From: Rhodosporidiobolus odoratus
Lineage: Eukaryota > Basidiomycota > Microbotryomycetes > Sporidiobolales > Sporidiobolaceae
Direction: 5' to 3'
DNA: 64,000 bases
NCBI GenBank assembly: GCA_034387635.1
Contig: JAOANU010000014.1
Span: 520,546-584,545, forward strand
Made by a program: the position numbers and the translations under genes. The notes under the pieces are model-generated. The model was not told the DNA's origin. It ran no database searches and saw only the letters and a program-made list of their open reading frames with translations. This document shows, in pieces, positions 4,801 through 50,393 of this stretch (position 1 is its first letter; the number at the start of each line of letters is the position of its first letter).

Positions 4801-5536
4801 GAGCTTTTCCTCCATGTTTTCTTCGCCCGCCTTGAGACTTTGTTCCTCGGATGGGTCATGTGTGCGAAGGGCTGCCTGACAATTTATCACTCCGTAGGCA
4901 TGGCCTACTCTCCTGGCGAGGGTCCGGTCCCGTTCACCTACTCTGCCGAAGCATTCCCTCTCTACGTCCGTGACGTCGGTATGTCGTACGCGACTGGTGT
5001 CACGGTGAGATTTCCCTCTTTCTTACGCGTCGACTTCGTCTGCCACGGCTTGCTCATATTGTTCCTTCGGTCATCTGCAGTGGTTCTTCAACTTCATCGT
5101 CGCCCTCACCTTCCCGCGTCTTCTCACCGCCTTCACGCCCCAGGGTGCCTTCGGGTGGTACGCCGCATGTGAGTCGTTCTCATGCGATCTCAGCTTTTCC
5201 GTTACTGACTGCGCCTGTTTTTGCTTGGCAGGGAACGTTATCGGTGCTATCCTGGTGCTGTTCTTCGTTCCGGAGGTGCGTCTCATCGCTCCTGCCCCGA
5301 AGACTGGATCCGTACTGACGAGCGCGTCTACTCATTCTCCCATTCTGCAGACCAAGGGTCTTTCCCTCGAGGAGCTCGACAGCGTCTTCTCCGTTCCGAC
5401 TGGCAAGCACGCCTCGTACGCCCTCACCGGTGTTGGCTACAACTTCCGCAAGCACGTCCTCCGTCAACGCGTTCCTCCTAGGGCTCCCCTCTACAGCTGG
5501 GAGGAGAACGAGCACTACCCCAACCAAAAGGCGTGA
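1843..5536 (+). CDS. MFS sugar-porter-family transporter, copy A
   Basis: Plasma-membrane transporter of the sugar porter branch of the major facilitator superfamily; the substrate cannot be read from sequence. Splicing about 20 short introns gives a protein with a cytosolic N-terminal extension of about 100 residues, then the family signatures: NKMFGRRGT after the second helix region, [29 protein letters not shown] at the central loop, QQFCGIN, the [17 protein letters not shown] segment and the closing [11 protein letters not shown]. The ATG at 1843 lies in a cca-ATG-tcc context after a pyrimidine-rich leader and starts the same N-terminus as the second copy. Exons include a 12-nt exon (3440-3451) and a 6-nt exon (3535-3540). 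It is followed 1.7 kb downstream by a close paralogue in the same orientation. Family assignment is firm; individual junctions were read by eye. Confidence 0.93.
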
Positions 5537-7243
5537 GGAGCACTTGCGATCCCTCGCCTCTCCCGGACTCGGATGCAGTGCCTTAATTTCTCTTTTGTTC
5601 CTTCGCAATGTGTAGTTATTCTACAAATGGTTTCCTTCTGTCTTCACTCCCTTCTGTCTTACGATTCTTCCCTTTTCACCCACCTTCTCAAGCCAGTCTT
5701 ACCTTCGTCTATTCTTGGTTTGGATCCTGAAACGCGGTGCCTTCTAGGACCACCTTTTTATACTTCTGCGGCGCTCGAACACGTTGACTCAGCTCGTGCG
5801 AGCCTGAGGTTTCTGGCACATCGCTGGGGAAAAGGAAGTCGGCAGCGCCAGGGAAACGACCACAACCGTAGTCCATCCGGGCCCCATGTGTGGTCCAGCC
5901 CAGAGATAAGGCTTCCGAGCGTCGCTACAGCTTCTTGGCCGGCCTTGGAAGGGCTCAGCCAGGCGTGCGGAGGAGGACATGTTTCTTGTCTCTTTTTCTT
6001 CCTCGTCTTGCTACCGTCGATCACTTCGGTGGGGCTTGAACGCTACGACTGATTACTTTCAACACCTCAGCCCTACGATACTATGCCTCGCGACACCTCT
6101 TGCTCGCTACCTCGCTCGCCTCGACTTCATATATCCTGCCCTCAACTTCGAGCGGCAGCGCAGCTGCAAGTCCCCGGTCAACAAGGCTGCGTAGTCTATC
6201 TTCGACCATACCATCGTTACTATCGCCTGCTACCCCTCAGCACTTCCTCTGATGCGCTTGATCAGCTACCTCCTCAAGTTCGCCGTGCGGATGTCTGGGT
6301 CGGCCCGGGAACAAGGCTGGGTAAGCAAGGACGACGTGATGCTACTAGCAGCAGCAGCAGTAGGGCCTATGGCATGTGCGCATTCTTTCCTTCGTTACCA
6401 CTCGCCCTCTTCGAACTTCACATTCCGGCGTGGTACCGCTGACACAGGATCGTCTCTAGGATGGTGTGGCGCGGAGCAGTGCTATGTTACAGCCTATCTG
6501 GATCCTCCCTGCGTCCTGCTCTGTTCATGCCAGACTCGCCGGCGGCTCCCGGACCGCCTTCTTCCGCTTCCTCCCCACTTCGGCACCCACCACCCAATCA
6601 CGTCCACGATTCATCCTCTCTCATCAGCGCTGTCAGGCGGGTCCCGAGCCCTCTGTCCGTCCTCGCTGTCGCCTGCACGGGTTGCACGCTGTGCGAGCGT
6701 TACATTGCACGCCCACTCGGCTCCTTTTGCCAGATCGGGTCGAGGCTGGTCCCGTGACCGATATCCGCGGCGATCACCTCCTGTGCCTCTGCTTTGTCTC
6801 CTGCGACTCCCGTTGCACACAGCCGGTACAACCCGGCACACACGGGTCATGCAGGAGCCCTCATCGCCACCGGCTCTCGGTTTAGTACAACTCCATGGGA
6901 CGCGCTATCGCTAGGCAGGCGGGGCTGCGGGTGGTCTGCAATCGTCCGGGGAAGCTTCTACAGGCCACTCAGTCGTGCAGAACCGCTTCTTTCGCCCTCG
7001 TCAGCCAGCAGAGGACGGCGGAAGTGGCTATTCAGGAGATGCTTGGCAGGGACCTGGCGATTCTTGACCGCCGGAATTAGCCTCAGGAGCACTCTGCGCG
7101 TGGAGGAGGGAGTGTTGGTTGAAGTGGGGGACATCAGAACGATCAAGGAAACGCCCTCTCTTCCTCTCTTCTCCTCACCTACCTCCCCACCTCCCCCACA
7201 TCACTCCCGTTCTTCACTTTCCTTCGCTCAAGTCCCGCCCAAG
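5537..7243. other. Spacer between the two transporter genes
   Basis: Holds the 3' flank of copy A and the promoter of copy B, whose last 100 bases are strongly pyrimidine-rich. Around 6252-6390 a short plus-strand stretch (DDVMLLAAAAVGPMACA) faintly recalls fungal rhodopsin-like membrane proteins, but no gene model can be built around it. Nothing else is supported. Confidence 0.5.
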
Positions 7244-10200
7244 ATGTCCCGCCACGACGTCGATTCGACACACCCCGTCGACCCGACCATCCACCGCCAC
7301 ATTGAGGAGGCCGCGAAGCAGAAGGCTGTTGGCACTTCCGAGAAGCGCGAGCTTGTCGATGATGCCAGCTTCAACCATATCGACAACAAGACCAACGTCA
7401 ATGCTTTGCTCGAGAACCCGCTTCAGGGTATCTCGCACGACCGGCTTGAGGGTGAGCAGCCTTTCCATTGCTCTACCTCGCGCTGCTCTGATCTATTCGG
7501 TCTCGCTGACGGCTTCACTTCTCTATGTAGCCATGGGTCGCGCTTTTGCCCGCGAAAAGGGGCTGGCAGAGTTCGAGACCGAGTTTGCCAAGGGTACGCT
7601 GTCTTTCTCGCAAACATCCTTTCTCCCCTCTTTCATCTTCTTCCCCTCCTTGGGCTTTGCTCTCGAGCTGATGCCGTGTCTCCTGTACGTAGGCGCTCAG
7701 ATCGCCCAGGACCCTCTCGCCTTCGAAGCGCTTACCCTGCTCAGTGAGGAGGACAAGGATGTCCTGCGTCACGAGGCTACCCACAAATGGAGCCACCCGA
7801 AGCAGCTTTATGCGCTCGTCATCTGCTGCTCTATGGCTGCCGCCGTTCAAGGTGCGTTCTCCTCCTCCTGATTGTCCGCCAGTCTCGGCCGTTCTCTACC
7901 CCATGCTGACGGCCGATGTTGTCTACAGGCATGGACGAGTCCGTCACCAACGGTGCAAACTTGTTCTGGCCTGCTCAATTCGGTTTGCACACCGGCGAGG
8001 GCGTTCCCAACTCCGACTCGAACGAATGGATCATTGGTGCGCTCGTACTCCTTTCATCTTTGTGCTACCGCACAAAGACGGTCTTTAGCGAATGAGCTTG
8101 AGCTAATGACTCATGCTCCCTCTTCCTCGCTTCAGGTGTCGTCAACGGGGCGCCTTACCTTTGCTGGTACGTCCGGACTTTAATCGCAGTGGACAATCGA
8201 TCCGTTTGGCTGACCTTCCTCATCACCTCCTTGCCTTCTCTCCCAACCAGCGCCATCCTCGGTTGCTGGCTCACGTCGCCTCTCAACAAAATGCTCGGTC
8301 GTCGCGGTACCATCTTCGTCACCGCTTTGATCTCGGCCCTTACCTGCATCTGGTCCGTTCCTTTCCGCCTCCGTGTATCCAACTTGAGTCTCATAGTTTC
8401 GCGCATGCCACAGGTCCGCTTGCACCAACTCTAGATGGCATTTGTTCGCGGCTCGTTTCGTGCTTGGTCTCGGTATCGGCCCTAAAGTAGGTCCCTAGGT
8501 CTCCTGTCGTTCTTCCCGCACCTCTGCACCCCGAGTACCCTTTCTTCACACCACAGCCTCGTATCTGTACTCGCTGCGCGCTAGACTCGGGAAACCCGGA
8601 TACTAACTCGACTCTTTTAACCTTTCAGTCTGCTACAGTGCCCGTCTACGCCGCCGAGACTGCGCCGCCCCTTATCCGTGGTGCCCTTGTCATGCAGGTG
8701 CGTACTCCACGCTCTCATGCTCCGCAATAGTGACTGACGCGCTCCTTGATCGTCCTTCACAGTGGCAAGTCTGGGTGCGTCTCGTTCGTTCTCTCGAACT
8801 TCTCCTTCATGCTAACTTCCTTCTCGCCATATGTCACTCCATAGACTGCTGTAAGCTTGTCCCGTTCGCACTCTCATCCGCGTGCTTCCATGTGCTGACG
8901 ATACGCTTTCATCCCTCGTTTCCTTCCTCCGCTAATACCGCGGCCGCTCTTTACCTTTTCTCGCCCCGCTTGTCAACAACAGTTCGGTATCATGCTCGGT
9001 ACCGTAGCCTCCCTCGCCTTCTTCCGAGTACGTCGTCCGTGTTTTTTGCCCTGCGCCCTCGAACCCTTTGCTGACGTCTCGCGTCCTTCACAGGTTCCCG
9101 ACCCTACCAACGCCAACATCACCGGTTTGAGCTGGAGGTAGGTCATCGAGGCTCCCTCCGCGACTTCGCGGTGCTGACCCTCTTGCTGTGCAGGCTCATG
9201 CTCGGATCCGCCGCTCTTCCCGCTTTCTTCGTCATGGCCCAGGTCTACTTGTGCCCTGGTGCGTGTCCCTTGCTCCCTGGCCTTCCTCAAAGTTGAGTTT
9301 CACTGAATCCCTCGGCCTCGCAGAATCTCCTCGTTGGCTCATCGTGCGTTCTTCACCCAACTTGCCCTGCTGCAACTTTCGCCTCCTGACGCGTTTCTTC
9401 TCTCTCCGCAGAGCAAGGGCCGCTACCGTGACGCCTACCAGTCGCTCTGCCGCCTTCGTCACACTCGCCTCCAGGCTGCTCGTGACCTCTTCATGATCAA
9501 CGCTCTTCTCGAGGAAGAGGCCAACATCGCCACCGGCAAGTCTGCAATCCTCGAGATCTTCACTGTCGCTCGTAACCGTCGCGCGGCTCTTGCCTCTGGT
9601 ATCGTCATGTTCATGCAGCAGTTCTGCGGTATCAACGGTTCGTTATGTCCCTTCTCCAGGCTCGCATGTTCCGCTTGAGCTGACTCGTCTCCTCTGTACA
9701 CGGCAGTCATCGCCTACTACTCTTCCACCATCTTCCGTCAGGCTGGATTCGACGACATCACCGCCCTCGGCGCAACCCTCGGGTACGTCCTTCTTCCACC
9801 TTGCTGCCACATTGACCGCGGATTCTGATACTCGCCATCTTGCCTTTAGTTTCGGTGCCCTCAATTGGGTCATGGCCGCTCCCGCCGTCTGGACCATCGA
9901 CAGTAAGCCCTTTTTTTCTACAGTCATTCAGCGGTGGCTAACTTGTCCGCTCGGTAGCCTTCGGTCGTCGCAACCTCCTCCTCACGACCTTCCCTCTCAT
10001 GGCGATCTTCCTTCTCATGACCGGCATGGCCTTCTACATTCCCGCGGATTCGAACGCTCGTATCGCTGTCGTTGCCCTCGGTATCTACCTTCATTGTGCG
10101 TTACCTTCTCTCCTCTTCCCCCATTACCCTTTCCTGCCATGCTTTCGTCGCATGCGTCCACCTTCCTTTTCTGCATGCGACACAAGCACAGAGAACTGAC

Positions 10201-10841
10201 CGATCATCTTGTCTCTGCGCAGGCATGGCTTACTCTCCTGGTGAGGGTCCGGTCCCGTTCACCTACTCCGCTGAGGCTTTCCCTCTTTACGTCCGTGACG
10301 TCGGCATGTCTTACGCCGTCGCCGTCACCGTGAGCTAGCCTTCCTTTGAATGTAACGTGGTCGAGCACATCTCGCTAATACTGTATCTGCTGTCCTCGCA
10401 GTGGTTCTTCAACTTCATCGTTGCTCTTACCTTCCCTCGTCTCCTTACGGCCTTCACCCCTCAAGGTGCTTTCGGATGGTACGCAGGCTGTAAGTAGACG
10501 ATACTCTCATACGTTCTCGCAATGTCGCTGACTTGCTTTTTGCTACAGGGAACGCTATTGGTACTATCCTCGTCCTCCTTTTCGTCCCCGAGGTACGCCG
10601 CACCATCCGTTGACGTCCTAGTCTGCAACTCACTGACCCCTTTGCTGCTCTACAGACCAAGGGTCTCTCCCTCGAAGAGCTCGACGCCGTCTTCTCCGTC
10701 CCTACCGGCAAGCACGCCTCGTACGCCGTTACCGGCGTCGGCCACAACTTCCGCAAGTACATCCTTCGCCAGCGGGTTGCGCCGAGGACTCCCCTCTACA
10801 GCTGGGAGGACAACGAGCACTACCCTAACCAGAAGGCTTAG
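7244..10841 (+). CDS. MFS sugar-porter-family transporter, copy B
   Basis: Tandem paralogue of the gene at 1843-5536, with the same N-terminal extension ([16 protein letters not shown]), signatures ([41 protein letters not shown]) and exon layout, including the 12-nt exon (8763-8774) and 6-nt exon (8845-8850). Introns have diverged almost completely in sequence while exons differ mainly at third codon positions, except for a 108-bp identical tract at 9532-9639. The ATG at 7244 is equivalent to that of copy A and follows a CT-rich leader; the frame ends [13 protein letters not shown] as in copy A. Both copies look intact, so this is a functional duplication. Substrate is unknown; divergence may mean different affinity or regulation, which is inference. 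Confidence 0.93.
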
Positions 10842-35920: not shown

Positions 35921-37901
35921 TCAAACCACCCCCTGCTGTCTCCTCTGCGCCAAAATCCCCTCTCCAACCCTAATCCTCTCCCGAACCCACCTCTCGACCT
36001 TAGCCTTCTCCAACCCCACCGCAATCCTCGGATCCAACCTGCTTCCACTTCTTTCGTTCCACCTTCCCTCGTCGATCAATTTATCCCTCCTCCTCCTCGC
36101 TTTCCTCACCCCATCCGCGGCCAACGCGACATGAAACGCTGGCAATCCGGGGATTTGACGGAAGACGTCAAAAACGGCTCGGTCGTCTTCCGTACTCCCA
36201 CCGCCTCCTCTTCCGGTGTCTCCACCCCCGCCTGAATCGAGGTCGACGAGTTCGACAGGAGAGGTTGAAGAGAAGGAGAGGTCGGCGTCAATCAGAGGGA
36301 GGTAAGGGAGGAACGAAGGCGAGATTTGCAGCAGGAAGGCGCCGAGCGGGGTGGAGGACAGGTGAGAGTCTTGCTGATTGACGGGTGGGGGAGCCACCTG
36401 TGCAAGTTGTTGCGAGGGAAGGGAGGACGAGGAGGGAGGTTGGGGCGGCGGACCAGGCGTAGGGGAAGGGAAAGCAGGAGAAGCGGAATGGAAGGATGGA
36501 GAGCCGTAGGGTTGCTGGTACATGGGAGGAGGAGGTTGGTAGGCCTGTTGCTGCGGTACCATCGCTGCAGGTTGTTGTTGAAACGGATGCTGTTGCTGTT
36601 GCTGAGAAGGGAAGAACGGCTGTTGAGGCGAAGGCTGATACCCTCCATTGGTCCCCATCCCGAACGCACTACTCCCCGCCGCGCTCCCTGCCCCCGCAAA
36701 ACCCACTACCCCCCCTGCTCCCCCGCCTCCTCCCGAACTCGCACTCCCCGCCATCCCCCCACTTGCCGCAACCGGAACCAACGGCGGACTCTCCAAACTC
36801 GGATCGTCGTGCGTCAGGACCGCTCGACGAGCGTTCTCAGCGTCCGGATTCATGGGGAGGTACGGCGCTGCGTGAGAATGGACCGGGTTGAAGGCGGCTT
36901 GGTTGATTCCCCAACCGGAAGGGGCGCCGGGCATGTCGGGGAAGGTGGTGAACTCGGCAACGCAGTTGTAGGTGCAGGCGCTGTGACGAGATGGGAATCA
37001 CGAGTGGTCTTCGATAGAAGAGATAGAAGAGATAGACGAAAACGCACAGGTCCGTCTTGCAAGTCAAGCGACACATGGTAGTCGTTTCAGCGCTGACCGA
37101 AACGTCGTAGCTGTGCAGTGACGAGTTTCATCAGCTGGCGCTCCCGGCAAGAGCACAGTAGAACCGAAAGGCAAGAACGCAGGACTAGAACGCACCCTTT
37201 CATCCACCAATAACACCTGTGCATCTTCCTAAAGTCGCTCTGCAGGCAATAGGAAACGTCGCGTCAGTTGACTGATCGGCTGACTCAATCATACAAGCTG
37301 CTCGACGCCGTTGATGCGCGTACAGCCAAGGGTCTTGCACCCTCGCCCTCGACGACTCGCAGGCAGTACATTGCCGCAGACGCCAGCCGCCCGCCTTCCG
37401 GCGGGGGACTGCTAAGCTCATCGAAGGCTCCTCGCCCTCGACAACGCGCAGGTAGTATACTACCGCAGGCGCCAGTAACCCGCCTGGCTCGGTGGGAGTA
37501 TGCTCAGCTCGCTCGCAGAAAGCTCGTAGAGCGCTACGAGCGCTCGACGACGCGGGGCCTTCCTCGCTCATCGGCTGCTACCTGCGGCTCAGCCAACGAC
37601 GCTTGTCGGGCCATATCTACCCCGCTTCGCCCATCGACTGCTAGCGCAGTCGACGACGCTCGGGAAGGCGCAGTGGACGACGCTCGGCTCGGAAACGAAT
37701 TGACTAACCTGATTCTTGTACTTGCCGAGGGGGGACTCTCCGCCGTAGGTCTTGTCCATGCGGAGTTTGGGGGGCTGCGGGCGAGGAAGAAGGTGCAAGG
37801 CGAGCGAACAAGCCGTGAGGTCGAGGTCAGCGTGAATCAAGGGAAGCGGTCAGGGACAAGACTAGGGGCGAGAAGCTGACCTTTGCGACGCGGGACGACA
37901 T
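35921..37901 (-). CDS. Orphan with Cys/Trp-rich N-terminus and Gln/Gly-rich middle
   Basis: Not recognised. Exons of 21 nt (37901-37881), 66 nt (37774-37709), 44 nt (37239-37196) and two further pieces join to an N-terminus MSSRVAK, PPKLRMDKTYGGESPLGKYK, SDFRKMHRCYWWMKGYD, TTTMCRLTCKTDLACTYNCV, AEFTTFPDMPG. The cysteine spacing (CRLTCKTDLACTYNC) suggests a small metal-binding or disulphide-bonded module, but no family can be named. A Pro/Gln/Gly-rich middle (QQQQQHPFQQQ) follows, then a helical C-terminus (DDRAVFDVFRQIPGLPAFHV, LDPRIAVGLEKAKVERWVRE). The second intron is 469 nt, several times longer than the gene's other introns, and contains the intronic repeat described separately. Divergent from RPN13 across a 438-bp promoter. 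Confidence 0.7.
37310..37690 (-). repeat. Intronic repeat, copy A
   Basis: Fills most of the 469-nt intron 37240-37708 of the Cys-rich orphan. Read in the transcript direction it begins CGAGCGTCGTCCACTGCGC 22 nt after the GT donor, then contains GATGAGCGAGGA, CGTCGTCGAGCGC, GAGCTTTCTGCGAGCGAGCT and two imperfect copies of a CTGGCGCCTGCGGTAGTATACT-like unit (one complete, one diverged). It shares these blocks in the same order with copies B and C. It has no coding potential of its own. Confidence 0.75.
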
Positions 37902-38339
37902 GGTGGCGATGTCGCTGAGACGAGGGCGGACAGCGAAGCGTCCTTGTTGGGGTATTATTGGGCTGTGGTGGAGCGCTAGCGAGGGAAGTCGCAAAGTGGG
38001 GGGAGGATGAAAAGAACAGTATCAAACGGATCAGCACGCGAGAGACGGGAGTTGACAGTGTAAAGTGCTCACAGTGGTCCTGTGAGTGACTATAGCAGTG
38101 TCCGAGGTGTGGATCGAGTGTACAAGCGAGTTGATTGATGAACTCTGTGATGAGTTCAAGGCGACGGACCGAGAAGAGCAATTGGCGATCAAGGCGTGGC
38201 TCGAGTGGGTCAAGCCGGTAGCTCTGAATCGACTAGGTACAGCTGCAGCTGATTCTGTGCTAGTCGAGGGCGTAGACAAGTCGGTTTCTCCTCATCTCAT
38301 AATAACAACTGGTTGTTCACTTTGCCCCACTCGTTAGCA
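37902..38339. promoter_or_regulatory. Divergent promoter of the Cys-rich orphan and RPN13
   Basis: The two start codons face away from each other across 438 bp, so promoter elements of both genes must lie here. No specific factor-binding site is assigned. A proteasome-associated control element (PACE, GGTGGCAAA) of the Rpn4 type was not seen. Confidence 0.55.
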
Positions 38340-40132
38340 ATGGCCCCGTTACTCCAGTTCAAAGCAGGCAGGTGCACAAGGCAGGGTGAATCAAACACTG
38401 TGGTCCCTGAAGCAACCAAAGGGTAACTCGTTCCCTTTCTCTCCTTCGTCTCGTCGTCACTCTTCCCCTTCCACCTCGAAACTAGACTGCAGGCGGATCC
38501 GCTGACCCTTGCTACTCGTAGCCTCATCATCCTCGAAGAACAAGACGGCCTCCTTCACTTCCTCTTCCGCACCTTCAACTCGTCCTCGTCCTCCTCGACG
38601 GGTGAAATCGAAGACGACCTCATCATCTTCCCTGGAGACGCCACCTTCCTCCCCGTCCCTACTCCCACCGCTCCCGCCTCTTCCTCCTCGAACCGCATCC
38701 ACGTCCTCAAGTTCAACTCGTCCTCGGCCCGCCACTTTTACTGGCACCAAGACGTCGACCTCGACCCCCAAGAGTATCAGCGTCGAGGTGCTCGGGTCAA
38801 TGAGCTCATTGGGGCCACGGCGGACGAAGAAGGGGGAGACGAAGGGATGCAGGGTGTAGAGGCGTGAGTCCCCCCGCATTGCCAGTTTTCTTCGAGCGTC
38901 GTCGCTTGCGCTTGCAAGCGTTGAGCGAGAGGCGCCAGAGGCGCTTTACCAATACGCCCGCACGCGTCGTCCGCCGGGCCGAAGGTGCAGCGGATGAGCG
39001 GGCGGGCGGGGGCGTCGTCGCACCCCTTTCAGGTGAGCGAGCGCTAGCGCGCGAACTAGCGACTACAGCGCCGGGAGGCGTTCTCTGGCGCCTGCGGCAG
39101 TTTAGGACATCGGCGCCTGCGGCTGAGTACCATACTGAGCGTCGTCGAGCGCGAGGAGCGCTCGATGAGCTTTCGGCGAGCGAGCTTAGGTTTCTTCCGC
39201 CGGGAGGCGGGTGGCTGGCGCCCGCAGCAGTATACTGTCTGCACGTCGGCGAGGGCGGGGAGCCCTTCGATGAGCCCATCTCAAGTGAGCGAGCGGGAGC
39301 GAGCCAAGGATCTTCCCCTGGCCTGGACAGCGGAAGGGAAAGAAAACACCCGACCGCTTGTTTTTTTCGATCTTTCTTGCTGCTGAACCGTAATTTCCTG
39401 CTTCGTTCACAGCTCGACCTCTTCTTCGGCCGCCCCGCATTCCCTCGCTACCCCTTCGCATGCCACAAGTACTTCGTCAGCCGGCGCACCGGGCGCGCCG
39501 GCCGATCCTGCTGCGACTTCTGCCTCGGCGTTCGGCAGTGGCAGCAGCAGCGGAGCGAGCCAAGATCAGCTTGCGCAGTTGCAGAGTATCCTAGCTGGTT
39601 TCGGGGCTTCGAGCCAGGGTGGAAGTGGTGGAGCTGGAGCAGGTGGATTGGCAGGATTGGCGGGTATGATGAGTAGTCCAGGTGCGTCCGCGTCGATCCC
39701 ATCTCCGATGCTCAAGCCTATCGCTTTCATTTCGACTGTCTCGACTGACCCTATGCCCCTGCGCCTCCCTTTGCAGAATTCCTCCTCCCCGACGTCCTGC
39801 CCCCTGCGACCGCCTCCTCCCTCCTCTCCACCCTCCCGCCCTCTGTCCTCTCCCACCTAAGCACCTTCCTCCCCCCCTCCCCCCACCTCCCAACCGGCAC
39901 CCCCTCCAGCCAACTAACTTCCCTCCAGCGCGCGATCGCCTCTCCCGAATTCCGGAGGAGCTTGGCCGGGTTGGACAGGGCGTTGAGGACGGGCGCGACG
40001 GGTCCATTGGTTAGAGGGTTGGGGATGGGGGACAGGGCGGCGCAGGGTACTGGGGAGTTTTTGGAGGAGGTTCAGAGGATGGGGGAGGAGGAGGAGGCGA
40101 AGAAGGCGGAGGAGTCGGGAGGGACAAAATGA
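38340..40132 (+). CDS. RPN13: Proteasomal ubiquitin receptor Rpn13/ADRM1
   Basis: Four exons (38340-38422, 38522-38863, 39413-39681, 39777-40132) give 349 residues. The N-terminal Pru domain is clear: LLQFKAGRCTRQGESNTVVP, GLIILEEQDGLLHFLFRTF, EIEDDLIIFPGDATFLPVP and RIHVLKFNSSSARHFYWHQD, aligning block by block with human ADRM1 (LVEFRAGKM..., EDDLIIFPDDCEF, VYVLKFK...FFWMQE). A Ser/Gly/Ala linker follows, then the DEUBAD-like C-terminal domain (PDVLPPATASSLLSTLPPSV, LQRAIASPEFRRSLAGLDRA) that recruits the deubiquitinase UCH37. The protein docks on the 19S regulatory particle and binds ubiquitin chains. The second intron is 549 nt, far longer than the 99- and 95-nt introns beside it, and carries intronic repeat copy B. 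Confidence 0.95.
38891..39310 (+). repeat. Intronic repeat, copy B
   Basis: Occupies the 549-nt intron 38864-39412 of RPN13, beginning CGAGCGTCGTCG 29 nt after the GT donor. It contains two nearby GGCGCCTGCGGC units, CGTCGTCGAGCGCGAGGAGC, GATGAGCTTTCGGCGAGCGA and GGCTGGCGCCCGCAGCAG followed by a TATACT. The segment 39136-39235 aligns closely with the corresponding part of copy A. Orientation is the same as the host transcript. Confidence 0.75.
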
Positions 40133-40174
40133 GGGATGGAAGGGAGACTGTGGGAGGGTGGCGAGGTGGAGAGG

Positions 40175-40602
40175 ATGAGTGCGAGTAGGAGAGCTCTACC
40201 TGTGGTATGCCAGCAATGGGAGGCGGGCAGGTTGTGGGGGATGACGGGTGCGTCTTGTCTTCTCTCCGGTCCCTCTCACGTTTTGTCGTGCTTGCCAGAC
40301 TGACAGATCGCTCTTACAGCTACCACGAATGCTGAACTTGCAAGGCGCGCAGCTTTGGCGGCATCGATGAAAAAGCAGCAAGCAGTGTAGGTAACCTTGT
40401 CTGGCCCCTACAATCCCAGGCGGCCTAATGGGACGGTTCCTACAGTGTCGAGTCCCTGGAAAGAAACCGAGAGGGAGAGGATGTTGTAAGCATCTTCTAC
40501 GGTTTGTCCTCAAAAACGGACGTCGCAAAAATGGCCCTCTCCCTTCGGACTTTTTTGTTCGCGGGACTGCGGCTGCTGTCTGCTCGCGCTTCCGTCGACT
40601 AG
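40175..40602 (+). CDS. Small three-exon orphan protein
   Basis: Not recognised. Exons 40175-40247, 40320-40386 and 40446-40602 join to 98 residues starting MSASRRALPVVCQQWEAGRL, then ARRAALAASMKKQQAVVESL and REGEDVVSIFYGLSS, ending LFAGLRLLSARASVD. Donors are GTGCGT and GTAGGT with CAG acceptors; both introns have plausible branch sites. The N-terminus is basic and Ser/Arg-rich, which would suit mitochondrial import, but that is only an inference. The start lies 42 nt after the RPN13 stop, so the two transcripts are nearly fused or share regulation. Exon 3 might be cut short by another donor at about 40492. Confidence 0.5.
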
Positions 40603-40859
40603 GTAGTCGGCATGCTCACTTGCAAGACCTCGTCACCGCGTTGGAAATTGCGCCGACACACCGAACCAGTGCTCGAGCCTTCGCAACCTCCTGTTTTTCC
40701 CAGCCCGCATCTCGTTCCGCTCTCAACGTTTGTCGTCCCAGCTCCGTTGAACGTTGACAATGTAGACGACCGGACGACGTCGCCTATCGCTGCTCGCCTC
40801 CAGCTATTCAGCCGTCTTGTTCCATACCGCCCACCACTTCATCTTCCCTCTCCGCCGGC

Positions 40860-41765
40860 ATGCCAGAGGCGATGCAGTCCGCCGAGTCCTACACAACCCT
40901 TGATGGGCTGGTACAAGCTAGTCGTACGGCAGCGCTTGCAAGCGTGCGTACCTCACTTTCCTTGACGCCAGGAATTCTCGATAAAAACGAAGAAGCGGGA
41001 GTAGAGCGGACTGCTGATGTCGTACTTTGCTGCCCGCATCAGGTGACGGCTCTCAAGGCATCACACAAGGAGCTCTCTACGCGTGAGCAGGTCAAGACCC
41101 TGTACGCGGCACAGCAGCGACTCGTTGAGCTGAAAACCCTCGACAAAGCTGGTCTTCCACCTTACAAAGGCAAGAGTGTTGGGCTTGGTAAGAGCGCCAA
41201 AGCGCATGGCGCAGCCGCAGACAGAGCAGAGACGGAGGAGCGAGTGTTGAAGCGTCTGAGGGTGGACGCTGAGACTGCCATGGAAGATGTTGCTCGGGCA
41301 TGTAAAGGAGACCAGGTACGTTTCACCGCTCCTTCTGCCTTTTCCATCTCCATGCACGTACCTAACTTCGTTACTATCCGTACTACAGCCTCCCGAGTAT
41401 TCCGCACCTCAGGAAACGCCTCTTAATGCCAAGCGTGCTGTGCGCTTTCGATCTTTTTCTCGTACTCTGTGCCTTCCGCTCGATAGCCATCAAGCTGACG
41501 GAGCGACATTCTGCAGGTAAGAGCCTACGATCTGTACCAGTCAGAAAAGCGCAAGAACCTACGCAAGGCGCGCGCCGACCTTCGGGCATCGACCATTCTC
41601 GAGATGGTGCTGAAAAATTGGGAAGGTTTGGCGGAAGATCAGAAGCAGGCAAGTCGACGTTGTCCTCGCGTTATAAACATCTCGCTCTCCTCGCTGACGC
41701 TCCTAGTTTTCTTGCAGGTGTGGTACCGTGCGGCTGAAGAAGAAGAAAGGGAGAAGGAGAAATAG
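40860..41765 (+). CDS. HMG-box protein with an atypical GC-AG intron
   Basis: Five exons (40860-40943, 41043-41315, 41389-41439, 41517-41648, 41718-41765), all in phase 0, give 195 residues. N-terminal helix SYTTLDGLVQASRTAALAS, a helical basic region (VTALKASHKELSTREQVKTL, AQQRLVELKTLDKAGLPPYK), then an HMG-box-like domain (VRAYDLYQSEKRKNLRKARA, LEMVLKNWEGLAEDQKQVWY) and a Glu/Lys tail. The W and Y spacing fits the HMG fold; such proteins bind and bend DNA. The last intron begins GCAAGT instead of GT, a known GC-AG class, and is needed to reach the final VWYRAAEEE that closes the box. It is a paralogue of the gene at 26923-27711, with a matching first exon and intron. Confidence 0.8.
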
Positions 41766-43506
41766 TCTGAGTAAGTACCTCTATGCCGCTAACCACAGAT
41801 GAATCGATGTACAGGGAGTAGGCTCATAGACCGAGGCAAGCATTCCCCGTTCTTTGCATCGTCCTTCCGTGGATGAGTTGTCGCCTCTGCTGCATTGCGG
41901 CGCTGATGCCTGCACCTACATCTTTTTGTCATAGTCCCAGTTTTCAGCTGCGGTTACACTGGTTGGCTGCCTGATGCTCTTCGCATTACGACGGGCCTTT
42001 TTCGAGAAATACAAAATTGCCTAGAGGAGCCCCTTCAGCTCTACTGTGATTGCTGGTCTCTTTCTACTGCTATCTGCTGAGTGCATTGAGCGCTTTTGCG
42101 CACCTATTCCCACAAATCACGCAGGTTCAGCTAACCGCTCTTTCCGTTGAAAAGTTTACGCACCTCAACTCTGCAGCCCTGGCAGCAGAGCTTGCAGACC
42201 CTCAGGCCCTCAGCACTGCTGACCATCTCGCCTCACCTGCAGCGTCAGCTGTCCACAATGCCCACTGCAAAGCGGCGACTCACTCGACCAACTTTTTTGA
42301 CCTTCTCAAGCCAAAAAGCAGTATGCGGCTTGTAGAGTCACCACTGCACATTGAGACCTGCTGCTGAGCAGCCATGCTGCTGAGGGAGTGTATAGCAGCG
42401 TGCGACATGCATCTGCTAAGTCCAAGGTGGACAGGAACAGGCAGACCAGCTTGTTCTGCATCTCCACAACCACCTTTTTCCCCTTAACTTGGCTTTCCCT
42501 GTGTGCAACGCCTTGAGCTGAGGCCTGGATTGGAGCCATCTGCCATTGATCAGAGACCTAGGATACTTTTGCGAGACAGAGCCGCTGTGTTGCAGCCGAC
42601 TTTTCCCAAGTTCACCTTCAATTTTTCGATTTCTTCCCTAGATTTCCTACCCGACCTACTGTCTCTAGGCCTGGCAGGCCACGGGACCGGGACTCAGTGG
42701 CAGGATAGGTATGTAGACGAACGAGCTGTGTAGTACCGGCTACAGGAAGTGAGACGCCCAGACGAGCGCGGCGGGCGATCAAAGCGGGCGATCGAAGCGG
42801 GCGACACGGGAAGGTGGAGAGAGAAGTAGAAAGAACGCACAAGAATAGCAGTAATAGTCTCTGAATTGCGGTAGAACCAACAGGTGTGAGAGAGCTTGCT
42901 AGCGAGCCGAACAGACGAGAATAAGATAAAGAGAAAAGAGGATGAAGGGGAGCGGGGAAGCTACGGCTACGAGGTGGAACAAAGGGAAACGAGAGAAGAA
43001 AGGCAACGTGTCTTAGGAAACCGGACACGGAGAGACAGCGCCTTTAGGCGTGCTCGACCTTGACCTTGGAGGGAGGCGGGCGCCTCGTCTTCGTCGTCGG
43101 AGAGCGTCCTGTGCGAGCGGAGGAACGCGAGTTAGCTCCGGTCGTTACAGGAAGGTTCGATATTCATTCTCGTCCGTCTCTTCAGACGGTCCGAGCAAGA
43201 AAACGCTCCAGTCTCCTTGGCCCCGTTTATCTGCTCTCGCCGCTCGTCTTTGGCTGGTGTTACTTGTGTTACCCCTCGAGGTGTTGCGCACAAGCCGTCA
43301 AAGAGAAGACGCTTGAATAGAGCGCTCGAAATGGCTGAGAACTCCGCGGAAGCGGTTATCCGAACCCTACCCAACAAGGCGAAGAGCAAACAGGCGTGAA
43401 CAAGCAGGACGCGGACGGAGACGGACGGAGCTACAAAATAACAAAGATACCCTCTCTGTACCCTTGTACATCCAAAAAAGAGCAATACACGAGCTCGACT
43501 TTTTTT

Positions 43507-43602
<96 letters not shown>

Positions 43603-44054
43603 TCCCGGTCCGCGAGCGCACTCGAGAGGCTTTGAGCTTGGCTTGTTGTAAATGCTTGGAACATGGAGAGCGAGAAGAGAAGAGACCGAGACGAGAAGGA
43701 AGGGTATGCTAAACAAGAAATGCTAGACTACGACGCTGGACGGAGGACGAACACAAACACGGACAAGGATGGGCAAGGAGGAAGGGGATGGTGCAAAGAA
43801 GGATACGGCGGGGTCGTGAGACAGACACAGACACAGAGCGATGGAGACGGCGAGAAACGAGGACTTCAAGGAGGAGACGACGACGACGACAACGATTGCT
43901 AGAGACGCGGAGGTTACCAGAGGGCGTAAGCGAGGAGATGGCGAGATACGAAGAGGCGTGACCGTAAGGGGTTGATTGGTGGCGAGAGAAAGGATGAAAG
44001 TAAACGGAAGCGAAGGGGAGAGGAAGGGAATGGGTGAGATCGGACCGACAACGA
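41766..44054. other. Intergenic region with simple repeats
   Basis: About 2.3 kb without a convincing gene. A plus-strand frame at 42125-42363 has protein-like composition but no ATG context or splice partner. A minus-strand reading ending at 43044 (KTRRPPPSKVKVEHA-stop) could be the last exon of an unrecognised gene. A plus-strand frame ending at 43399 (MAENSAEAVIRTLPNKA) is also short. The region contains the TTTC microsatellite listed separately. Confidence 0.4.
43501..43604. repeat. TTTC tetranucleotide microsatellite
   Basis: About 26 uninterrupted copies of TTTC (GAAA on the minus strand), preceded by a short T run and flanked by unique sequence. It lies about 450 bp beyond the stop codon of the arrestin-like gene. 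Open frames across it (Lys/Glu/Arg or Phe/Leu/Ser repeats) are artefacts of the period-four repeat. Confidence 0.98.
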
Positions 44055-46533
44055 TCACTGCGCCTTTGACCCCCTCCTCGTGATCCTCGACAGCAACCCT
44101 CCAACAAGACTCGCTCTCCTCGTCTGCGCCGGCGGAGCTCCCGCAGTGGCTGAGCAACTCCCACTGAACGAGGGCAGTTTAAGCGACCCGAGGGGCGGCG
44201 AAGGGAGTTTGAGGCGTTGTCCTCCTCCGCCTCCGGGGCCGTTGACGTCCGTTAGAGGGGTAGCGGTGTAAGAGGAGGATGTCGAGAGAGACGCTCGAGG
44301 AGAGACGTAGATGTCGCGGATTTCGTTTGCTGCGAGGCGGGAAGGCGGGAGTTTGCTGCCACGGTTGCTGGCGCCGTTTGTATCGTCCATCACGAGGAAA
44401 CCCTCGACGGCACCATCGGGATCCACCACCGACATGCTGAACGGCGAGGTCGAGGTTGCGAAGGGGTTCTGGAACGCGTCGTGCATGGTCAAACTGGGAA
44501 CCGGCGAAGGAGGTTCAGGCGAAGAAGGCGGCGAGGGGGAGGGACGATGCGGTGGAAGGGGACTGGTCGCCATAGGAACGTCGACCGGGTACTGCGGCTG
44601 CTGCTGAGCCTGGTACGGAAAAGGAGGCGAGGCAGACATCTCCCGCCCTCCGTCGCCGAGTGAGAGAGCAATGATCCCAGGCGGAGCGGACAACTCCCTC
44701 GTGCTTCTCCTTTCGCTGATCGCGCTCGAGCCCGAGCCCGAAGCGATAGACGTGAGGGAGGCGATAGAGATGTTGGAGACGCTGCGGGCGGAACCTTCGA
44801 TCCCATGAATGGACGACCGAGTCGAACCAGCCGATCGAGGGCGGTGATCTCTCGAATGACGAGCTGAAGCACGCGGCGCGCGAGCCGAGTGTCGAGGAGG
44901 GGATACGTGCGTGAGAGGGTATTGAGGGATTGGCGGGGAATGAGGCATCTCAGAAAGGGTAGGAGTCAAAGCGGGAGTGATGAGGAACTCCATCGAGTTG
45001 GGCGTGTCGGGGCCAAAGGTCTCGACCGTGCTCGAGCGGGAAACGTTCGGCTCGGTAGGCAGGCTGGAGAGGGAGGTTGAGGGAGAAAGGGGAGGCAGGA
45101 CGATAGGAACTGGCGGATCGCGACGAGCCCGAGTTCGAGCAGGCTCGATCTGCTCCGACATACGTCGTCCAGAGTTTGGTCGGCCGGGGTGAGGCAGAGC
45201 CAAGTTCGTGGACGAGTGGCGACGCTCTTCCACGGCAAATGGCGGTGCGACGAGGGGGGTAGGGGAGAGTTGGAGAGGGAAATCCGAGTTGCGGCGGAGG
45301 AGTTGCGGTACAGGGGCCAGAGCCTGAGGGGCGTTGGCAGCAACGGGAGGTAGAGGAGGGCAAACATGTATAGGCCAAGAGACGAGCTCGACCGATTTCT
45401 TCGTACCCTTGACCTTGTACGAAACCTGCGAAGGTGGAAAGGCGACGAAAGCCGATTAGGGGTAGGCCACAAAGGTGGGAGGGATAGAATCAGCTTACCT
45501 TGCCAGTTAAAGCGAACGTCATGCTGAACAAATTGCATCCTCCGGTCTCACCGTGCGAGTAGAGCGCCGTCGGTAGTTTCATCTCGAGCGTCCGTTCCGC
45601 CTCAACATCTGCCGCCGCATCGGCCCGCAGAGGGAAGAAAGGAGGCGGCCGAGTAGGCGACGGCGTTCGCCCTTTCTTCGTCGTCGAAGCGGAGATCGAG
45701 GAGGTGGAAGAACAAGCCGAAGCCGATGGCGGGGGAAGGGTGAAGGATCGAAATTTGGTAGAGTGTGTGGCGTGAGGTGCGTTCGGGCCTGCACCTCGTG
45801 TCGTTCGCTTGAGAGTGAGACCGACATTCTCAATCGAGATGTTGCAGCCGGCGGGAAGGTGGAAAGAGACGTGGATGGGAAGTGGTGCGGAGGTGTGGAA
45901 TGGTCGGTTCGGGACGCGGATGCGGTAACTGGCGGAGGGGCCGGCTGATGTGCTAGGGGAGGCTAGGAGAGGCGCGGCCCATTCGAGGTCGAAGGGTGAA
46001 GACGGAAGGAGCTTGACGGAGGTTCTTCGAATCAGCTTGAGGTCGTTGGTCGCCTTTGCCTCGATCCGAGGTTCGTTGACGATGTTGGCGTCTGCGACGA
46101 GGGCTTGAGCATGCTTGACGACCTGGAAAAAGGAAAAGAGGGACAACGTACAAGCTTCGACCCTCCAAACAACGGAAACCGCCCTCAGCCCACACGTCAA
46201 ATCCATCCTCGACAACCCCTTATTCTCCTTCGGCACCACCAACTTGAACTTCCACTCCCCCTTACTAACCTTCTCCCCCGCAGGCGTCGCCGCCTTCCAC
46301 ACCCTCTGCTCACAAATGATCTCCTTCTTAGACGTCCCCCCAAACGCTTCGACCCTGGCAATCCTCGCAAAGATACTCTCGACGAGTTGACCTCTCTCTG
46401 GAGCGCGTTCGTCTACTCCGGCAATGATACTCCCCCGGACGAGAACGTCTTCGGTGCCGTATTGACCGCTGAAAGGAAAAGTCCCACCGGCGGAGCTGTT
46501 GCCGTTTGAACGGCTGATATTGAGGGTGAGCAT
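44055..46533 (-). CDS. Arrestin-like domain protein
   Basis: Start at 46533 (MLTLNISRSNGNSSAGGTFP), three exons, stop at 44055. The N-terminal half shows beta-sandwich, arrestin-like blocks: VLVRGSIIAGVDERAPERGQ, GEWKFKLVVPKENKG, EPRIEAKATNDLKLIRRTSV, LPIHVSFHLPAGCNISIENV, RTLEMKLPTALYSHGETGGC, NLFSMTFALTGK joined to VSYKVKGTKKSVELVSWPIH. The remainder is a long Ser/Pro-rich disordered tail with possible PY-like and phosphorylation sites, as in fungal alpha-arrestins that adapt ubiquitin ligases to membrane transporters. The first junction is ambiguous: a GTACGT donor fits an unusual CAAG acceptor, whereas the CCAG acceptor would need a weaker donor. The second junction is firm. Function is inferred from the fold-like pattern only. 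Confidence 0.65.
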
Positions 46534-48206
46534 GAAAGTGGGCTAGTGAGTGTGTCCTCGTGCTCCGCAAGGGTGCATCGAAGGAAGGGCGGGGGAGACG
46601 GCGTAAAGCTGAGAGAGAGTGTGTCGAGAATGGGAAGGTCAAAGGCAAGGTTTCGCGGTCGGCGTCTTTTCGAGTTTCGTCGCAACGGGGGGGAGAGAGG
46701 GAGGGAGAGAGCCAAGAGGAGAGAAAGGTGGTCTAGGTAGAACAGAACTAGAAATATGACAAGAAGAGGTTAGCGGAGGACTAGTCTAGTTCCATTTCCA
46801 TCTCACCACCCCACCTTGAACGCGTTCCGTCATTGGCACGCTGTCTCGTTTGACGCACCTGATTGATGAACCGAGTATCTCGTACTGCAGTGTATCTCAG
46901 ATAGCGGCAGTCAAGAGCCAGGCGAGGCGAGGCGAGAGTTGGAGGACAAGAGGAGAGGGAGAGAGACAGCGGCTAGTGTCGAGGTCGGCGGTGGGAGCGG
47001 GGCAGTTCGGAGATCGGGTCGTGCGGAGCCCAAGTCGTTTAGGGGCGCAGCAGGGACGGTACAGTGATGCAGAGACTCAACGGAGCGAGTAGAGTAGAGT
47101 ATAGCTGGTGTTGGCCTGCTCTGCGTTGGTTGATAGTGGGCGCTCAAGCCCAAGCAATTGACTAACTCCGAAGTCCGTTGTCGGCGCCTGGACTGCTACC
47201 AACCCGATCGAGTTAGCGTGCGAGTAAGGTTGGCGGGCGGGCGTGCCAAAAAATAGATCCTGTGCCTGGAGCCTCTGCAACGAGACGCGTCCAACTGGGT
47301 GATCGAGGACGCGTCTCTCTCCTCTTTACGCCGCGTAGCTCGTAGCCAGCAGCAGTACGGTATGCTCAGCAGACGACCGCAACAAGACAAGTAGACGCGC
47401 AGATCCATCCTTGATGCAAAGTGCAGCGTCGGCGTTACACCGCAAATGAAGATCAAGCCCGGCGTAATGCATTCCTGCAAGCTGAGGTCGAGAATCTGGG
47501 CGTCGATATACTTTTTCTCTCCCTTGCTGCCAGCCTCTCCCAGTTCCCATGTTGAACGGTAGCAGAAGCAATCGACACCGATGTGTAGGTTCTACCGAGG
47601 CGGGCCGTCGGACCTCGATTGGAGACGGGCAAAGTCAGGTAGGGTTGGAAGAAAGGGATGGGGATTGGGGACCGAAAGGAGAAGACAACAAGCGATGAGT
47701 GCGAGATGGTTCAAACGTTGACCGCAACTTTCTCGAGTGACCTCCGGGCCGAGCCAGCCAGATTGCCAGGTAGCGTGAAGGGAGACGCTGTCGTGGGATC
47801 GGCAGTCGAGGTTTATTGGATTCAGACGCGGCTAGTGCTTGTCCGGTTTGGCTTGACGCGCTCCGTTCAACGTTGGGCGATTCAAGGTGTAGGGGTGACG
47901 AGGCGGGAAAAGGCGGTCAGCGTACCGGGAGTGCAACGGACGCCTTGACGGACACCAGGCTATCTAACAAGCAGTACCAGGTGACCCGTACAGTCTCGGA
48001 GTGGACGTAGTGAAGTGAGAGGAACGAGGTGGAAGTTGATCTACACATTCCATTCCATTGGTACCCGCTATAGCTTGTTCAGACTAGACTGACTGAGCAG
48101 CTCACAGACCAGCCAGGATCCAACTACGCTGACGCCGTCCCCGTCGCCGTCCCCGTCGCCGTCCCCGTCTCTCTCGCTCATCACTCATCGCTGGATCCAT
48201 TCAATC
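46534..48206. other. Divergent intergenic region
   Basis: Lies between the starts of the arrestin-like gene (minus) and the ING-PHD gene (plus), so it holds both promoters. At 1.7 kb it is longer than a typical intergenic region here, but open frames inside are short and unsupported on both strands. Confidence 0.45.
48134..48169 (+). repeat. Three tandem copies of a 12-nt unit in the ING gene leader
   Basis: GCCGTCCCCGTC is repeated three times without error, ending 37 nt before the start codon at 48207, so it is probably in the 5' untranslated region. It may be a simple slippage product. Confidence 0.9.
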
Positions 48207-50393
48207 ATGGCCAGTCAAACACCAACTCCCTCAAGCGAGATCATACACTTGGTATCTACATTCACAGATGCACTCGACAGTCTACCTCCTTCGTTGACTA
48301 GGAGTCTCAGTGACCTCAAAGAGTTGGACGCCGTTCTCAACAGTCAGTTCAACTTCCTCCCCTTACTCACCGCCTAGCCACCTAGTTCTGCTGACTCTTG
48401 TATACCCCCAGGCTCCCTTCAAGCCATCACCGAAAAGCTCAAACTCCTCCACCAGATGATGCACACTCCCGACCCCACCAAATCCTCCTCTTCTTCCGGT
48501 ACTCCCCAGTTCACTCAACTCGACCGCCTCAAACTCCTTCGCGAAGTCGCCGAGGACGCCCGCGTCTTTAGGCTCGGTGGAGAGGACAAGATCAGGGTCG
48601 CCACCAACACCTGCGAGACGGTGAGTCCCGCTTCTTTTTTCCGAGCGTCGTCCACTGCGCCAGCAGTGGATGAGCGAGGAGGGCCTTGCGTCGTCGAGCG
48701 CGAGTAGCCTTCGATGAGCATAGGACTCTCCCGCCGCGCCACGTGGGTGACTGGCGCCTGCGGCATAACCCTCTCAACCCAGATCCGACACTCACACCCC
48801 CTTGGCTTGTTCCGCAGATCTCGACCCACACCTCTCACCTCTCGACCCTATCCACCCTCCTCCTCGGCTTCCTCCCCTCTCACCTCCTTCCCGGTCTCCC
48901 CGCCCCCGCCACCCCTCACGGTTTCCCCAAATCCAACACGACCTTGCGAAACAAGTACGATTACAGTGCGTCGAGACACGCAGGTCAGGGGAGCAATGCC
49001 AGGGTCAATGGGGCGTTGGGCTTAGTTAGGGAACATTATGAGGTGACGGGTTCGGGGACGAGATCGGCCAGGCAGGCGGCGGCTTCTGCTGCTGCGGGAG
49101 GGGGAGGAGCGGGGAGGAAACGAGCCGCTCAGTTGGATTACAGCATCTACGGTGACGATTATGGAGTTGGCGGGTCGAGGGGCAAGGGGGACAAGGATCC
49201 GAACCAGCGTCACCCGAATCAGTATACCAAGAAGAGGTTACAAGCGGCTCAGGCTCAAGCGGCGCAAGCGTCCGGGTACGGCGGTGCGGGAACAGGGTAC
49301 TCGCATCAGCAGCAGCAGCCGTATCAGCACGCTGCGCATTACGGAGGAGGAGGGGCGGTTTCGGCGGCAGCGACGAACGCTCAGGCGGGCATCTACTCGG
49401 TAGCTGTGCCGCAGCAGCACCATGGGCAGGGAATGTCGGCGATGGATGCGGTCAAGGAGAAGCGGTTTAGGGGGAACGAAAGTGGGATCGTCGCTGGGGG
49501 TTCCGGCGGGGCGAGTCGACTCGGAGCGACGAGCGCCAGTGCCAGCGGCAACGGTGTCGGAAGCAGTAGAGCGGGTGGTGGGGCCGCGTTTGGGGCGCAA
49601 CAGGGCGGAGGGTACTATGCGACGGGCCAGGACGAGTACGGGACGGCGGCGTTGCAGCAGCAGCAGCAGCAGGCTAGGGGGGCGGCGAAGCGCAAGCAGG
49701 ACGAGATGGCTGGGGCAAATAAGAGGAGGAAGAAGGGGTGCGTAGAGTGCTTCGTTCCCTCCTAACCGTCATGCGAGAGGAGCAAGTTCCGCTGTCGCTA
49801 TGCTTACTCTCTCGTCTTTGAACTGCGCAGCGCCGCCGACTCCCCCGACCTCGCTGCCCGCGCCCTCCCCCTTTCAAACGCGACCTCCCGGCCCCCTCGC
49901 CGTCAAGGCTCGACCTCGACTCGAGCCGAAGACCCCCCCTCACCTCAACCCCAATACCACCCGATGGAGGACGAGTTTGAACCGCTCGAGGGCGAGGACG
50001 AACAGGACAAGACGTTGTATTGCTTCTGTCAGAGGGTCAGCTTTGGCGAGATGATTGCTTGTGATGCGCCAGATTGTGAACATGAATGGGTGCGTTGGCC
50101 CTCTCTTCATCGGTTCTATCTCTGTCTATTCCCTTGCTTTCCCGCGCCTTGATTGATGACATTGCCCTCGCGCACCCATTTCCCCGGTCAATCTCGGGCT
50201 TACGTCACGACTGCGACAGTTCCATCTCCCTTGTGTTGGCCTCAAGAGTATCCCCGAAGGACGTTGGTTCTGCGACGAGTGCAGGGTACGCTTTTTCCCT
50301 TTCTTCCCTCCACACCAGCGTCTATCTGTACTGACGCTCCCGGGTTTTCGTCTGTAGCGCATCTCGAAGGCGGGTAAGAAGGGCAGGCGGTAG
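48207..50393 (+). CDS. ING-family histone-mark reader with PHD finger
   Basis: Six exons (48207-48342, 48412-48620, 48818-49737, 49831-50089, 50220-50285, 50358-50393) give 541 residues. N-terminal ING helix region: FTDALDSLPPSLTRSLSDLK, ELDAVLN, then ITEKLKLLHQMMHTPDP. The middle is Gly/Ala/Gln-rich with NKYDYSASRHAGQG and a basic KRRKKG. The C-terminal PHD finger has the C4HC3 pattern of ING proteins: LYCFCQRVSFGEMIACDAPD, CEHEWFHLPCVGLKSIPEGR, WFCDECR, followed by a short polybasic end (KAGKKGRR) as in phosphoinositide-binding ING tails. ING proteins read H3K4me3 and anchor histone acetyltransferase or deacetylase complexes (Yng2/NuA4, Pho23/Rpd3L). Which complex applies here cannot be told. 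Intron 2 (197 nt) carries intronic repeat copy C. Confidence 0.92.
48641..48775 (+). repeat. Intronic repeat, copy C
   Basis: Lies in the 197-nt intron 48621-48817 of the ING gene. It begins CGAGCGTCGTCCACTGCGC 21 nt after the GT donor (19 nt identical to copy A at the same position), followed by GATGAGCGAGGAGGGCC, CGTCGTCGAGCGCGAGTAGC, TTCGATGAGC and GACTGGCGCCTGCGGCAT. It is a shorter version of copies A and B, with the same block order and the same orientation relative to the host transcript. Confidence 0.75.

Follow-up and report, generated by a model that had tools for sequence, protein, structure and literature searches.

Sense-only, hairpin-bearing repeats in introns of the red yeast Rhodosporidiobolus odoratus: a small, old and possibly introner-like family

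Three long introns in a 64,000-nucleotide stretch of the Rhodosporidiobolus odoratus genome (GenBank assembly GCA_034387635.1, contig JAOANU010000014.1, positions 520,546 to 584,545; hereafter the window) carry copies of one repeated element. They belong to a real family that extends through the genome, resides in introns, in sense only, and shows signs of constraint at the RNA level; 37 copies of it are recognisable in the 24.8-Mb genome (45 contigs), or 35 loci after two gene duplications are collapsed. The element consists of several RNA hairpins in a row, which are conserved by compensatory change around a nearly fixed G.U pair, and the family is small and old. We lean, with some caution, towards an old, decaying introner-like family whose copies, we infer, created the introns in which they lie. 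The host is, as the initial annotation of the window had supposed, a red yeast (Sporidiobolales, Microbotryomycetes, Basidiomycota).

That annotation had described a repeat common to three long introns of 469, 549 and 197 nt. The lengths are exact, all three introns are GT...AG, and the repeat is real: cross matches within the window are far beyond chance, and the best of them all run sense to sense (81% over 139 nt, E 1e-30, between introns 1 and 2; 79% over 78 nt, E 3e-13, between introns 1 and 3; 91% over 32 nt, E 1e-6, between introns 2 and 3). It had also seen no copy outside introns in the window, and the strongest match elsewhere indeed has an E of only 0.002, while a strict hairpin scan of both strands gave five module matches, all inside the three introns. 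The introns, the element spans alike copies at other loci (blastn among fetched loci) and the hairpins are as follows.

37240..37708, minus strand: element-bearing intron 1, small Cys-containing protein gene, GT...AG, 469 nt (sequence and protein alignment)
37366..37681, minus strand: element copy 1, span alike copies at other loci
37629..37659, minus strand: hairpin A of copy 1
37566..37602, minus strand: hairpin B of copy 1
37522..37553, minus strand: hairpin C of copy 1
37416..37447, minus strand: hairpin D of copy 1
38864..39412, plus strand: element-bearing intron 2, RPN13, 549 nt (annotated R. odoratus RPN13 reads through the junction)
38884..39248, plus strand: element copy 2, span alike copies at other loci
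38896..38926, plus strand: hairpin A of copy 2
38964..38999, plus strand: hairpin B of copy 2
39139..39170, plus strand: hairpin C of copy 2
48621..48817, plus strand: element-bearing intron 3, ING-PHD gene, 197 nt (Pfam ING spans the junction)
48632..48775, plus strand: element copy 3, shortened
48645..48675, plus strand: hairpin A of copy 3
48688..48719, plus strand: hairpin C of copy 3

All copy searches were made without regard to location. With the three introns as queries, the genome yielded 31 elements in 26 stretches. A whole-genome motif search gave 60 matches (one in a backwards-read control), 58 of which fall within elements of the family; it added five elements and two matches set aside as chance (C2:371474 and C10:1468159, one overlapping an exon edge and the other exonic). 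Two other motif searches (15 and 21 matches, controls 0) revealed no new place, and two further copies used as queries gave one extra place, on contig C27. The 37 copies are a lower bound, and the family seems nearly exhausted at this number of recognisable elements. The initial annotation had named tens to thousands of matches, overwhelmingly intronic and sense-biased, as support; the genome bears this out with tens, not thousands.

The copies are strongly diverged. Alignments of at least 60 nt exist for 369 of 630 pairs of copies, and the best of these have a median identity of 81%; outside gene duplicates the best identity is about 92%, and no near-identical pair was found. Similarity spans range from 73 to 514 nt (adjoining C35 pieces joined). 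The gene-duplicate pairs lie on C39 and C40. At C39:4452-4818 and 6531-6897 (L013, L014), two same-sequence copies 2,079 bp apart sit where a striatin gene has had its 5′ part duplicated in tandem; behind one copy the gene breaks off. At C40:2675 (minus strand) and C40:28816 (plus strand; L076, L094), related element introns occupy apparently paralogous, oppositely oriented genes near both ends of the 29-kb contig.

The sense orientation in unrelated host genes that had been claimed for the three window copies extends to the whole family: 36 of the 37 elements lie in an intron of a gene running in the same direction, as judged by gene prediction or by eye, and none is antisense. The remaining case is C39:4452, in the truncated duplicate of the striatin gene. 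The initial annotation had named copies that are intergenic or randomly oriented as counter-evidence; these were looked for and not found. The placement relied on a home-made gene model trained on fetched sequence, in which masking of the elements as non-coding left the choice between intron and intergenic sequence to the flanks. At 33 of 38 places this model predicted a single intron, always on the strand of the element and never on the opposite one. One of these 33 places is a chance match to the motif, which leaves 32 of 36 elements placed directly, some with doubtful intron ends. Doubt attaches to the predicted intron ends at C7:1154887, C40:28816, C34:51873, C11:118374 and C10. As for the others, the CDC37 element was placed by eye, with Pfam CDC37_N crossing the junction; C8:905576, in a Gos1-like SNARE gene and partly outside the gene in the model, lies between two exons by eye, the SNARE domain being downstream of the junction; and one C40 element intron is split by a predicted exon of 5 nt. 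The C27 element, the last of the 37 to be found, was likewise read by eye as intronic. Without masking, the only gene features at element places were on the element strand, and several long introns were broken up. The 1109 alignments between element introns are all plus/plus, but as the introns had been turned beforehand by element strand, this says nothing about sense bias and was left out of account.

Protein homology backs 15 of the junctions, 13 through Pfam and introns 1 and 2 through homologous proteins. A Pfam domain spans the element-intron junction in 13 of 24 host genes scanned, namely JAB (eIF3f), SMC_N (SMC3), Mito_carr, Cullin, XRN_N, Pkinase, Sortilin-Vps10, DUF1295, MFS_1, GCD14 (TRM61), CDC37_N, ING and Striatin (host gene names beyond the Pfam names are our reading). 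In the other 11 there is no spanning domain or the domain ends nearby; these include an AMP-binding host whose predicted intron start was later reset by eye. The 11 loci outside the Pfam scan comprise introns 1 and 2 and nine placed by the gene model alone. For intron 1, the hand-spliced product aligns ungapped with R. nylandii JCM10213_001116 (63% identity over 152 amino acids). The R. nylandii RPN13 carries the directly preceding tag, JCM10213_001115, so that the pair formed by RPN13 and the intron 1 host gene appears to have been kept. Across intron 2, the annotated RPN13 protein of R. odoratus runs without a gap at the protein level; the spliced RPN13 is 93% identical to that of R. odoratus JCM 11641, with the differences mostly within the predicted first exon, and 45-58% identical to those of five other listed congeners. 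The junction of intron 3, at residue 115, is covered by Pfam ING (residues 16-125). The host genes are unrelated and conserved and share no visible function. A search for the translated element within relatives' annotated proteins found none at E <= 1 among 1,675 candidates, which is weak evidence. Elsewhere in the window, matching blocks at 1843-5532 and 7244-10837, about 5.3 kb apart and 72-90% alike, point to an apparent tandem gene duplication.

From 5′ to 3′, a full copy consists of the donor, a pyrimidine-rich leader, hairpin A, hairpin B (enclosed by GGCCC...GGGCC), unit C (a hairpin, then GAGCGAAGCGGGAGCGAGCGAGGC, then TGGCGCCTGCGGCA), unit D (a hairpin, then CCCGCC...GGCGGG, then TGGCGCCTGCGGCA) and sometimes a further unit. 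Shorter copies do not have some of these units, and copies differ in which ones are missing. Beyond the 5′ splice site and the pyrimidine-rich leader, the outer intron ends are not recognisably alike. The hairpins share the frame GCGTCGT-stem-loop-stem′-GATGAGC or a variant of it. We collected 80 such modules, a few of them probably spurious, and all inner six pairs are formed in 54; when the 3′ halves were re-dealt 2000 times, the mean was 10.3 and the maximum 20. Modules were admitted with at least three of the six inner pairs, which biases the pairing percentage upward, and the shuffles start from the same set. The inner stem of hairpin A of copy 2 (both halves) is fully paired and unique among the 80.

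For counts of individual pairs, modules with inner lengths of 17, 18 and 22 only (68 of the 80, identical ones once) were arranged in three gap-free alignments of 19, 13 and 31 distinct modules; from the length-18 alignment two near-identical rows were left out and one C27 row was added. In these, 93-96% of cells pair. The cells changed on both sides number 20, 22 and 23, where shuffling gives means of 4.9, 8.8 and 5.6 and none of 500 shuffles comes up to the observed number. Sliding the stem partners gave at most 9 double-changed cells. A G.U occupies pair 3 of the outer stem in 66 of the 80 modules, and outside this pair G.U exceeds A.C by 35 to 15 (p 0.007). Since a G.U pair is possible on the sense RNA only, it is apparently the transcript that is constrained. 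Over the first 260 nt, the median folding z-score is -1.9 in element introns (n=35) and +0.6 in ordinary introns (n=50), and the sense strand has the lower folding energy in 27 of 35 element introns. Mitochondrial double-hairpin elements are likewise short mobile hairpins with compensatory stem changes, but they are mitochondrial and mostly intergenic.

Searches against Rfam gave no match at E <= 1 in ten fetched loci and, on the window stretch, one sub-threshold match outside introns. A tandem minisatellite was rejected, Tandem Repeats Finder detecting no array over copies 1 and 2 in 37000-39600. So was a bacterial repeat: an 18-base motif has single matches in 68 stretches of prokaryote DNA, out of 257 Gb, which looks like chance together with one locus common to Methylocystis.

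Element introns are set apart by their donors, which are GTGGG (12) or GTGAG (11) in 23 of 34 compared with 26 of 192 ordinary introns, the latter being home-made gene-model predictions in fetched sequence (median 76 nt). Compared over four donor classes, the two sets differ with a chi-square p of 1e-12. For six of the 34 the start of the intron was chosen by eye (C4, C10, C24:86365, C33:18241, C40:2675 and C8:905576), two of them, C10 and C33, in the GTGGG class, and the comparison omits C39:4452 and C40:28816 as gene duplicates and also C27, whose donor is GTGGGT. It supersedes an earlier hand-listed one (GTGGG in 11 of 30 against 6 of 192). GTAAG, the best match to U1, is the donor of only one of the 34, so that greater donor strength alone does not explain the class. 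Among 11 predicted introns of at least 200 nt that carry no element, several of which look mispredicted, the class does not show (GTGGG in 1 of 11). The simplest reading of so distinctive a class is that the element brought its donor along and was therefore itself an intron; alternatively, long structured introns may have a functional need for donors of the GTGGG or GTGAG type. The ordinary predicted introns have their own preference, for C at donor position +4 (GTGCGT, GTACGT), with GTRCG donors in 98 of the 192; this is unusual against the textbook donor, GTRAGT.

The branch motif CTGAC is also commoner in element introns (21 of 33 against 72 of 192), as is a GCAG 3′ end (70 against 49%). 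Positions +7 to +26 show no excess of pyrimidines over ordinary introns, and T is commoner at +11 to +15. No target-site duplication beyond the usual G was seen at the splice sites, the only positions tested, of 33 of the 36 available introns, where flank identity is as in ordinary introns. A DNA transposon or miniature inverted-repeat transposable element was rejected on this result together with the absence of antisense and intergenic copies.

If the elements are introner-like, the ancestral unit would have been a spliceosomal intron of an estimated 400-500 nt, with a GTGRGT donor, a pyrimidine-rich leader, hairpins A-B-C-D (sometimes E), a CTGAC-type branch site and GCAG. Copies would have reached transcribed genes by way of the spliced intron RNA, through reverse splicing or some related path from RNA to DNA, and created introns there; the hairpins may have served to protect or present the RNA after excision, or to keep a long intron open to splicing. 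The spread would by now have stopped, since near-identical copies are confined to gene duplicates. With fungal introner-like elements the family shares the apparent absence of target-site duplication and a stable predicted RNA fold, and also a distinctive 5′ splice site. The introner-like character proposed by the initial annotation is borne out insofar as the copies are dispersed, intronic, sense-only and in unrelated hosts; the small copy number, the high divergence and the unlike outer ends qualify this.

The most serious alternative is a short structured repeat that colonised existing introns, its antisense or intergenic copies having been lost or never made, a possibility that we rate as real though on the unlikely side. 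It would agree with the size of what is left of intron 3 around its compact copy (11 + 42 nt), close to an ordinary intron (median as above), and with the absence of any shared sequence seen between element and 3′ splice site. Yet insertion of DNA into introns would be expected to produce antisense and intergenic copies as well, and the 5′ splice site class is unlike that of ordinary introns; nor do the long element-free introns share it (GTGGG in 1 of 11), though many of those predictions are doubtful. The covarying stems and the G.U position kept in 66 of 80 modules, from which RNA-level pairing is probably under constraint, would suit a functional intronic RNA family, such as a regulator of splicing or a stable RNA derived from introns, copied because it is useful and kept by selection. 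We think this improbable: the host genes have no visible common function, different units are missing in different copies, the similarity spans vary from 73 to 514 nt, and neither the window stretch nor the ten loci matched Rfam. Compensatory stems might even arise in an ordinary palindromic repeat through palindrome correction at the DNA level, with no RNA function, given that the modules are near-palindromes and that antisense folding z-scores are similar to sense ones. Such correction would erase a nearly fixed G.U at pair 3 and does not sit with the preponderance of G.U over A.C elsewhere (35 to 15, p 0.007) or with the failure to find antisense or intergenic copies; we consider it very improbable.

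Several observations weigh against an introner-like family. There are only 37 diverged copies, similarity has no clear extension to the 3′ end, where the introns are alike only in the commoner GCAG and branch motif, and the creation of introns by the elements is itself a step that we infer. Two of five covariation measures are not extreme in the second and third alignments: the pairs with double change are reached by 77 and 229 of 500 shuffles, and the number of pair types by 452 and 109. The antisense folding z-score has a median of -2.0, like the sense one, and sense is the lower in 18 of 35 introns only. The loci are also strongly clustered, a pattern not expected from a diffusible RNA intermediate. 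With the distance of 25 kb and the set of small contigs both chosen after the places had been seen, 15 of the 35 loci lie no more than 25 kb from another one, where 2.3 were expected and 20,000 simulations ignoring contig ends reached 14 at most, and 11 of the 35 lie on six small contigs that make up 1.7% of the genome.

Two causes of the clustering were tried and rejected. Mating-type linkage finds no place for itself, as a STE3 match lies on C17 and a homeodomain match on C20, both contigs without an element. Local copying is not reflected in the identity between neighbours (median 80.6 against 80.8%, p 0.17, from only 7 pairs); two of the 7 neighbour pairs are 90-92% alike.

The closest known fungal systems are ascomycete, as are the fungal mobile introns in the available parts of the literature searched. 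In the available text of PMC4457414 and PMC3443670, the introner-like elements of Dothideomycetes are dispersed similar introns in unrelated genes, in the gene direction only, which are not canonical transposable elements, have a predicted stable RNA structure and degenerate with time, all of which recalls the red-yeast family. They differ in forming hundreds of near-identical copies, against 37 diverged ones in a basidiomycete host with a modular hairpin string, and the likeness is one of description. As with the introners of Gozashti et al. (2022; PMC9860276), the introns here are related by copying; families range from 5 to more than 2,000 copies in the part of that paper available, which names Pezizomycotina as the fungal group with introners. 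As described there, the survey bases its similarity score on both ends of the intron (at most 100 nt from each) and could miss families with differing 3′ ends. The sister stwintrons of Hypoxylaceae, in the accessible portions of PMC8469720 and PMC12403724, are also seamless sets of tens to hundreds of related introns, functional on the coding strand only, with a symmetrical RNA structure and no Rfam family; they differ in being twin introns, nested and bearing terminal inverted repeats, whereas the red-yeast element is an internal chain of hairpins. Our literature search, which covered titles and the beginnings of abstracts, mostly of open-access papers and excluding bioRxiv preprints, found no description of a basidiomycete introner, and no red-yeast or Pucciniomycotina paper on introners or intron gain was among the matches listed. 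The main text of a comparative study of Sporidiobolales genomes (PMC12093110) never uses a word that starts with "intron".

The origin of new introns is an old question, and whether introners move as RNA or as DNA is, in the literature as far as it was available, debated. We suggest, tentatively and with less assurance than the introner-like reading itself, that this is the first introner-like family in a basidiomycete, in which compensatory hairpins and a strand-specific G.U pair would mean that the intron RNA and not the DNA was constrained during spread; this would amount to direct evidence from sequence that intron multiplication passes through RNA. Surveys that score intron ends only can, it seems, miss such families. 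A basidiomycete family with covarying RNA hairpins offers a second fungal lineage for testing intron origin, and the annotated Rhodosporidiobolus proteins should make intron gain directly checkable.

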